A DNA stretch of 48,914 nucleotides from Dehalococcoidia bacterium (lineage in GTDB: Bacteria > Chloroflexota > Dehalococcoidia > Tepidiformales > Tepidiformaceae). The position numbers and the translations under genes are program-made. This document shows, piece after piece, positions 13,432 to 48,914 of the stretch (position 1 is the first letter of the stretch; every line of letters begins with the position of its first letter). The DNA lies in the NCBI GenBank assembly GCA_020850615.1, contig JADZEI010000006.1:1-48914 (forward strand). The letters run 5' to 3'. The notes under the pieces were generated by a model that was given only the letters and a program-made list of their open reading frames with translations, did no database searches and had not been told where the DNA came from.

Positions 13432-14220
13432 ATGACGAACTCACGGATCTTCGCCCTGACCGGTAGCAGCCTCCTGGCTGCGGCCGCGATCGCCGGTGGG
13501 GTGCTCGCCTTTGGCGGCAGCAGTGGCGAGGCCGCCTCGGCTTCGCCGCTGGCCGCCAGCACCGATTCGGTCACCAGCTCGCAGACGAGCGTGCTGACGC
13601 TGCTCCAGGCGCAGGCGCCCGACGAGGACGACACCACCAGCGACCGCCAGGCCACCCAGGAGGCGTACCTCCAGGCCCTGGCCGACAAGCTCGGCATCTC
13701 GCTCGACGAGCTGAAGGCGGCGCTCAAGGACGTCAGCCTCGCCCAGCTCGACCAGAAGGTCGCCGACGGGATGATCACGCAGGAGCAGGCCGACGAAATC
13801 CGGGCGCGGATCGAGGCGGGCGAAACCGGCGTGCACTTCGGCTACGGCGGCAAGCACGGCCGCGGCGGCGGCAAGGGCGGCTTCGACACGGCCGGCGCCA
13901 GCACCAGCGAGCTCGCGACCTTCCTCGGCGTCGACGAAGCGGCGCTTCGCGACGACCTCCGCTCGGGCACCACGCTCGCCGATGCAGCGGAAGCGGCCGG
14001 GAAGTCGCGCGACGAGCTGAAGGCGTTCCTGACCGCCGAGTACAAGGCCCACCTCGACGAGGAAGTCGCGGAAGGCGACCTGACGCAGGAAGAGGCAGAC
14101 GCCAAGCTCGCCGAGAAGACGGCGGAGCTGGACGCGAAGATCGACGGCACGATGTCGTCGGGGCATGGCCCGCGCGGCGACCGGGACGACGACGCGGGCG
14201 ACGACACGACCGTCGAGTAA
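13432..14220 (+). CDS. Exported helical-repeat protein of unknown function
   Basis: 262 residues. A signal peptide or anchor occupies about 1-35 (hydrophobic LLAAAAIAGGVLAF). The mature part has helical repeats of the type LGISLDELKAALKD...QLDQKVADGMITQEQADEIRARIE (about 83-127), and a second copy with ELATFLGVDEAALRDDL, ELKAFLTAEYK and VAEGDLTQEEADAKLAEK (about 155-245). A Gly/His-rich insert YGGKHGRGGGKGG sits between the copies and an acidic DDDAGDD tail ends the protein. Similar repeats occur in secreted proteins of Chloroflexi, Firmicutes and Actinobacteria with no settled function; the Gly/His and acidic stretches could bind metal. It is monocistronic with its own terminator. Confidence 0.72.
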   Translation: MTNSRIFALTGSSLLAAAAIAGGVLAFGGSSGEAASASPLAASTDSVTSSQTSVLTLLQAQAPDEDDTTSDRQATQEAYLQALADKLGISLDELKAALKDVSLAQLDQKVADGMITQEQADEIRARIEAGETGVHFGYGGKHGRGGGKGGFDTAGASTSELATFLGVDEAALRDDLRSGTTLADAAEAAGKSRDELKAFLTAEYKAHLDEEVAEGDLTQEEADAKLAEKTAELDAKIDGTMSSGHGPRGDRDDDAGDDTTVE

Positions 14221-28390: not shown

Positions 28391-28437
28391 TCGGACAATC
28401 CCGCGGAGCAATGCTCCGCGGCTACGCCTGCGGCGCC
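28391..28437 (+). repeat. Isolated REP unit
   Basis: TCGGACAATC is followed by a palindrome of 10-bp arms (28401-28410 with 28412-28421, arm CCGCGGAGCA) and then GCTACGCCTGCGG. This matches the units around the RAYT gene at 48 kb in both core and flanks. It lies 37 bp past the end of the leftward membrane-protein gene. Confidence 0.75.
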
Positions 28438-47967: not shown

Positions 47968-48093
47968 GCGCCGGGAGCGCCGCAGGCGTAGCCGCGGAGC
48001 ATTGCTCCGCGGGATTGTCCGAACCATGCCTCGCGGCAGCCTGTGCTGAAGCCGTAGCCGCGGAGCAGTGCTCCGCGGGATTGCCGAACCAAC
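47968..48093 (-). repeat. Left REP pair flanking the RAYT gene
   Basis: Two units in inverted orientation relative to the right set. Their palindromic cores are 47992-48012 and 48058-48078 (arms CCGCGGAGCA and TGCTCCGCGG around one base), exactly 66 bp apart. Each is flanked by GTAGC on the left and GATTGTCCGAACC or GATTGCCGAACC on the right. The sequence between the cores aligns, as reverse complement, with the spacer of the right-hand units. Confidence 0.85.
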
Positions 48094-48114
48094 ATGCGGG
48101 ACGGCGGACGGAGT

Positions 48115-48573
48115 TCAGTCCGCTGAGTCGCTCCAGGTCCAGGGCCATTCGTCGAGTTCTTCGGCCAGTCCGGCTGCGAGCGGGTTGTTGACGATGTAGG
48201 CGATCAGGGTGGTCAACTCGCCCTCGCGTACGACCCGGTCGTAATAGCGTGGCTGCCAGAGATTGCGGCCGTGCCTTCTGTCGATGGCGAGCTTCGTCGT
48301 GTGTGGCTTGAAGGACTGCACCCACCGCGGGATTGAGAGCCTGGCGGGCCGCACGGCTACGTGCAGGTGATCCGGCATCAGGCATGCGGCGAGAAGGTCC
48401 ACCGCGTCGCGCGTACGTTCGTTCATGACGCTGTGCCAGACGGCTGCGCCAACAGGGCCGCGGAACGGGCGGGTGCCCGGCCACGCTCGCAGGATGAGGT
48501 GGAACGTGAGCCCACGGTTCTCATAGACGCCGGGCGGCAGCCGCGTTCTGCGCGGGAACGGGCGGTCGTTCAT
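48115..48573 (-). CDS. REP-associated tyrosine transposase (RAYT), Y1 HUH family
   Basis: 152 residues, complete. CLMPDHLHVAV contains the HUH metal site (H69-L-H71). LWQPRYYDRVVREGEL and AYIVNNPLAAGLAEELDEWPW match the RAYT/TnpA-REP branch of IS200/IS605-like enzymes. By comparison with the E. coli RAYT, the catalytic Tyr is Tyr126 in YIVNNP. These enzymes bind, nick and rejoin single-stranded REP hairpins and are not found on classical insertion sequences. There is no target duplication or IS-like end. The gene is bracketed by REP units with the same 66-bp spacing on each side, so they are probably its substrates. Confidence 0.88.
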   Translation of the reverse strand: MNDRPFPRRTRLPPGVYENRGLTFHLILRAWPGTRPFRGPVGAAVWHSVMNERTRDAVDLLAACLMPDHLHVAVRPARLSIPRWVQSFKPHTTKLAIDRRHGRNLWQPRYYDRVVREGELTTLIAYIVNNPLAAGLAEELDEWPWTWSDSAD

Positions 48574-48631
48574 CGGCGATTAGCCTAACCACCCAGACGA
48601 CACCCTTCCAACAGCCTGAGAATCGGGCGTT

Positions 48632-48801
48632 GGTTCGGACAATCCCGCGGAGCGATGCTCCGCGGCTACGGCTTCGCCTCGGGCTGACGCGGAGCCTGGT
48701 ACGGACAGTCCCGCGGAGCCGTGCTCCGCGGCTACGGCTTCGCCTCGGGCTGACGCGGGGCCTGGTTCGGACAGTCGCGCGGAGCAGTGCTCCGCGGCTT
48801 C
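48632..48801 (+). repeat. Right REP triplet flanking the RAYT gene
   Basis: Three direct units with cores 48645-48665, 48711-48731 and 48777-48797, each exactly 66 bp from the next. The unit reads GGTTCGGACAATC or GGTACGGACAGTC, the palindromic core, then GCTACGGCTTCGCCTCGGGC. The third copy is cut short after the core. The stretch 48802-48914 to the window end shows no gene or further repeat. Confidence 0.88.
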
Positions 48802-48914
48802 CATGAGAAGGCCAGTCTGGATCAAGCCGCGCCTTTAGCGGGCGCTCCAGCCGGGATGTCGTTTCGAAGCTCCGCTTCCATCCGCACTCTTGGTCGGCTC
48901 TCGCCGGGTGCACG

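Follow-up and report, generated by a model that had tools for sequence, protein, structure and literature searches.

We conclude that the window, by which we mean the whole analysed stretch of 48,914 nucleotides, very probably (about 93%) carries a REPtron: a gene for a domesticated single-strand transposase (RAYT/TnpA_REP, of the Y1-HUH type) flanked on both sides by its cognate REP hairpin in inverted copies. What is known of the spread of REPs by RAYTs, and of the joint change of specificity in the two partners, comes from a handful of systems in proteobacteria, and the present genome offers five such pairs.

The RAYT-A locus

The following features were located in the window.

28402-28425, minus strand: solitary dispersed class-A REP, with leader and trailer as in the copies flanking RAYT-A
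47988-48012, plus strand: REP A1, GTAG head 47988-47991, palindrome 47992-48012
48054-48078, plus strand: REP A2, palindrome 48058-48078, 66 bp from A1
48115-48573, minus strand: RAYT-A gene, 152 aa, Y1 (HUH) transposase of RAYT/TnpA_REP type
48631-48762, minus strand: two full 66-bp units (leader, REP and trailer), head-to-tail, 92% identical
48645-48669, minus strand: REP A3, palindrome 48645-48665, head 48666-48669
48711-48735, minus strand: REP A4, palindrome 48711-48731, 66 bp from A3
48778-48801, minus strand: REP A5, palindrome 48778-48797, 66 bp from A4, head GAAG
48798-48914, plus strand: end of a multi-copy insertion sequence (IS), inserted between GTAG head and palindrome and reaching the contig end

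An earlier note on this DNA had described two REP palindromes to the left and three to the right of a 152-residue Y1-transposase-like gene, the two sets in opposite orientation. All five palindromes are present, with the left heads on the plus strand and the right heads on the minus strand, and the reading frame is real by its match to Pfam Y1_Tnp. The 66-bp spacing given there is exact within each set, the conserved inter-core DNA that suggested a unit of about 66 bp is borne out by the near-identity of the two right-hand units, and the further unit noticed near 28391 has both palindrome and head. A1 consists of its head and a 9-bp palindrome with a 3-nt loop, preceded by the leader GCGCCGCAGGC and followed by the trailer GATTGTCCGAACCATGCC. 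In A1-A4 (A5 being the exception), GTAG is followed immediately by a perfect stem of 9 bp with a loop of 3 nt, the anatomy that defines REP elements (a GTAG/GTGG head, a stem of 7-20 bp at a distance of 0-2 nt, and a loop of 2-5 nt). Together, the left and right sets form a 103-nt inverted repeat (84% complementary), and the core has 13 strand-matches in the window with at most 3 mismatches, against 2.5 expected, a number reached in no shuffle. Two other classifications were rejected: CGTC-type REPs, as the heads are GTAG, and a TIRtron, as the flanks are REPs and not long unrelated inverted repeats.

RAYT-A scores 36.5 bits against Pfam Y1_Tnp (PF01797; cut-off 23, E=6e-9) and 68.3 bits against the REP_Tyr_transpos equivalog NF047646 of NCBIfam (E=6e-19), below the curated cut-off of 80 bits, which is a model threshold and not a biological definition of RAYTs. 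It has the HUH motif as H69-L-H71, a catalytic Y126, WQP at 106-108 and N130-P131; 27 homologues share H69, H71, Y126, W106, N130 and P131 without exception. The best PDB match by sequence profile is 4er8, E. coli TnpA_REP bound to a REP hairpin (E=1.2e-8), which is also the top Foldseek match (E=9e-9, TM 0.66) of an AlphaFold model with pLDDT 93.9. In the alignment, W106-Q107-...-D112-R113-...-R116 corresponds to E. coli W94, Q95, E100, H101 and R104, which have been discussed as residues of the GTAG-recognition region, and D and R replacements in that segment have been reported for other subclasses (PMC6006769). Two signatures of gammaproteobacterial RAYTs (PMC2817692) are missing, namely the motif NP(L/V)(R/K)xG, in whose place RAYT-A reads NPLAAG, and the fully conserved N-terminal T, absent in RAYTs A, C and D; we therefore count RAYT-A among the RAYTs only in a broad sense.

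A5 has lost its GTAG, reading GAAG, because the IS end abuts its palindrome at 48798. Ends of this IS occur 14 times (right) and 3 times (left) in the assembly, and all 14 right ends interrupt a class A or B REP precisely at the junction of GTAG head and palindrome, with the contigs breaking there. Further right ends are at the ends of contigs C2, C4, C15, C20, C29, C34, C64, C66, C67, C69 and C86, and the other end of the IS is on C17, C57 and C95. The start of the IS encodes MTHDTSIQTVGLDL, from which it is perhaps of the IS110/IS1111 type with a DEDD transposase. A search for the IS body by PF02371 gave only a different IS110, in contig C11, so the REP-inserted IS is known from its ends. 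REP-targeting ISs have been described before (PMC1525189). Contig C57 (13559-13927) ends in class-A units at 13559, 13625, 13691, 13757 and 13823, again 66 bp apart; its last class-A head is cut by the same IS as in the window, and its trailers are similar to those in the right array of the window (48645-48914). The two contig ends may together make up a single array, about seven units long, upstream of RAYT-A.

REP classes in the genome and its relatives

The genome, a draft assembly of 95 contigs, encodes five RAYTs (A-E) as single copies of 41-63% identity, and each is bracketed by its own class of GTAG hairpin in a common arrangement, the upstream head on the coding strand and the downstream head on the other. 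We counted REPs genome-wide with oriented GTAG-hairpin pattern searches and reversed-pattern controls. Class A has 116 oriented copies (91 exact), against 0-1 control matches, which rejects chance palindromes; a search of the whole genome for the core, as the earlier note had proposed, thus replaces the single dispersed copy visible in the window with a large family. Class B numbers 80 (control 0), class C 108 (control 0) and classes D and E together 130 (control 2), for about 430 REPs in all. The mapping of REPs against genes, likewise proposed there, placed 169 of 170 outside predicted genes in 420 kb of sampled stretches, with genes predicted by a simple codon model. In these stretches, the space between convergent genes is rich in REPs (53 in 18.8 kb), whereas that between divergent genes has few (10 in 18.4 kb). 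Class-B stems show a paired change in many copies, from G-C to A-T on both sides.

The sampled stretches also contain other GTAG hairpins for which no matching RAYT was found, GTAGCGCGCGCGTGAGCGAGCGCTCGG with 16 near matches and CAGTAGCCCGACCCGTGAGGGAGGGCAGG with 9, perhaps relics of lost RAYT/REP pairs.

These counts bear on the proposal that the locus is an ordinary IS200/IS605-type insertion sequence, with the terminal hairpins as its ends, that moves as one element with its gene. Such an element would have the same Y1-HUH fold and inverted hairpins on both sides of the gene, but the five homologues, at most 63% identical to RAYT-A, are single copies with hairpins of their own, near-identical copies of gene plus ends were not found in the genome, hairpins without the gene number in the hundreds, and the best structural match is TnpA_REP, not IS200. 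We consider this origin very improbable.

Among 61 genomes, this one included, 19 have RAYTs, and the named relatives in a similarity search with RAYT-A are Chloroflexi MAGs. One of these MAGs corresponds to a same-family genome among the 61, as both have the same two genes at a distance of 6.2 kb. Class-A REPs are essentially absent from the 60 relatives, which gave 2 single degenerate matches. Nearly all of the relatives' RAYTs for which both flanks are available are bracketed by inverted, class-specific hairpins. One relative (G022) has 15 copies of its own REP class and another (G001) has 54, and neither class occurs in the genome under study. RAYT and REP distances are correlated (r=0.40, 18 pairs, 23/20000 permutations) in a test that ignores the shared tree, and more weakly without two close genes of G043 (269/20000 permutations). 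In the RAYT tree, A and B are sisters, and C, D and E do not group with them to the exclusion of relatives. The earlier note had read the locus as a matching RAYT/REP system in a Chloroflexota genome, a reading that the 4er8 match, the abundant extragenic cognate REP and the Chloroflexi RAYT relatives uphold. It had named two observations that would speak against that reading, no further copies in the genome or equal copies in relatives lacking the gene; neither was made, because class-A REPs abound in the genome, lie outside genes and are missing from the relatives.

Two details of the relatives stand apart. The 54 REPs of G001 are split 45 to 9 between the two contig strands, and at one locus in G019 (L120) the REPs around the RAYT face heads-in, the reverse of nearly all others examined.

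The same data speak to the possibility that the hairpins serve the host in regulation, as transcription terminators, mRNA stabilisers, or gyrase or IHF sites, and spread by recombination, with the RAYT as an incidental neighbour. Their strong stems and extragenic placement, depleted between divergent promoters and enriched between convergent genes, would suit such elements, but the flanking hairpin class differs from one to another of the five RAYTs, the relatives' RAYTs are bracketed by classes of their own, and REP classes are concentrated in genomes with the cognate RAYT. This makes a host origin unlikely; a secondary host role for the hairpins is possible.

Six RAYTs of relatives, all in one subclade (support 98/98), are associated with GGAG-headed hairpins (in the flanks of L074, L073, L122, L075, L123 and L124), and all read WQPGMWDR in the segment aligned with the GTAG contacts. 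None of the GTAG-headed RAYTs compared has GM there (for example, WQPRYYDR, WQPSFWDR and WQPGFFDR), and a seventh RAYT of the subclade has the head GGGG and the segment WQPRTWDR. The new heads thus appear with a matched change in the putative head-contacting segment. Because this amounts to essentially one evolutionary event and one further change, we regard it as a lead and not as proof. The GTAG and GGAG subclades nevertheless yield a specific, testable prediction of the head-reading residues.

Head-to-tail units and hybrid composites

In the unit of about 66 bp, the REP is preceded by a leader (GGCGCCGCAGGC or GGGGCGAAGCC) and followed by a trailer (GATTGTCCG..CC) that often closes with a box near TGCCYCGCGNCAGCC; a consistent CT dinucleotide was not found in class-A trailers. 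Same-class head-to-tail pairs are in excess genome-wide (39/80 among the REPs listed, against 17.5 expected, 0/5000 shuffles), many of them at 66-83 bp, and contig C74 has a class-B array of six units. The unit recurs in another genus: G001 also has head-to-tail REP arrays, at 65-77 bp, and 9 of 17 of its trailers have the 3' box near TGCCYCGCGNCAGCC, compared with 79 of 5000 random stretches. From these arrays and boxes we conclude that the unit is older than the genome under study.

Away from the RAYT genes, REPs of different classes are combined. In the sampled stretches, 30 of 37 heads-out neighbours join a REP of classes A, B or D to one of classes C or E (0/20000 shuffles). Among the 378 REPs listed genome-wide, such hybrids make up 49 of 62 heads-out pairs (79%; 28.5 expected) and all 18 heads-in pairs (8.3 expected), with 0/5000 shuffles in either case. 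As the class grouping was chosen after the first sample had been seen, the contigs outside it provide the fair test, and there hybrids account for 16 of 21 heads-out pairs (45/5000 shuffles) and 12 of 12 heads-in pairs (0/5000 shuffles) among the REPs listed. Same-class heads-out pairs are only 6 of 62 among the REPs listed, so the composites differ from REPINs, which are inverted doublets of one REP class. The term BIME-like in the earlier note fits these dispersed hybrid pairs, with their alternating orientation, and does not fit the sets flanking RAYT-A, which are direct head-to-tail arrays.

According to PMC8266576 and the E. coli structure, RAYTs cleave REPs in single-stranded form and use GTAG both for recognition and as a guide. 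By analogy with E. coli and Stenotrophomonas TnpA_REP, RAYT-A would most probably bind its REP in the single-stranded state, for example at a replication fork, read the GTAG head and hairpin, cut beside the hairpin through Y126 with a covalent intermediate and then rejoin the ends. In this way, units of about 66 bp (leader, GTAG, hairpin and trailer) and longer composites could be duplicated into further intergenic sites and multiplied in tandem. The REPs of the five pairs are combined in dispersed mosaic composites, with an A, B or D hairpin at one end facing a C or E hairpin at the other.

We tentatively envision, as a possibility with the odds against it, that the mobile unit is a hybrid composite with an A/B/D end and a C/E end, each read by a different RAYT, so that two paralogues would cooperate or act in mixed complexes, and that a change in a short segment (for example, from WQPRYYDR to WQPGMWDR) has shifted RAYT head specificity from GTAG to GGAG. 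An equal rival, which concerns just the hybrid pairs and to which we give an even chance, is common descent from a single old composite with later exchange of hairpins between classes and no joint action of two RAYTs. The 29 cross-group composites have common internal modules in fixed order (M2 in 23/29, M1 in 22/29), as descent from one composite would predict, but such descent alone leaves the scarcity of same-group heads-out pairs and the 18/18 cross-group heads-in pairs unexplained, unless the ends are functionally distinct. Five cognate pairs and hybrid composites in one genome form a natural matrix for asking which RAYT acts at each end and whether two are needed.

Comparison with known systems

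The closest solved structure is that of E. coli TnpA_REP (4er8). In E. coli BIMEs (Y/Z2 REPs), two REP types alternate in opposite orientation, as in the hybrid composites, but there one RAYT serves both types of long, bulged REPs (PMC2817692, PMC6006769), whereas the REP types of the present genome have short, perfect stems and a separate RAYT each. The group-3 TnpA_REP REPtrons of Stenotrophomonas maltophilia (PMC8266576, PMC2817692) likewise have GTAG directly before a perfect stem with a 3-nt loop, the gene between inverted REPs, several RAYT/REP pairs per genome and W-Q-D-R in the GTAG-contact segment. Unlike them, RAYT-A belongs to a Chloroflexota clade, has head-to-tail 66-bp arrays at the gene and does not have NP(L/V)(R/K)xG or the conserved N-terminal T; hybrid dimers, about 10% in S. 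maltophilia (PMC3733652), are 79% of heads-out pairs here.

A Chloroflexota host is by itself not new, since GTAG REPs have already been reported in Chloroflexi (PMC3733652). The GTAG-23 REPs of Thermomicrobium roseum, also GTAG-headed, form a few clustered blocks, whereas here five dispersed classes have identified RAYTs; we set the two apart by description. The REPINs of Pseudomonas fluorescens SBW25 are heads-out REP pairs that act as mobile units (PMC3116915) and share with our system the heads-out pairing and some evenly spaced tandem arrays, but in SBW25 a doublet joins two REPs of one class and mixing is rare, whereas mixed pairs dominate here. RAYT/REP systems are thus already known; the dominant hybrid pairs, the unit of about 66 bp that recurs in another genus and the GGAG subclade go beyond what has been described.
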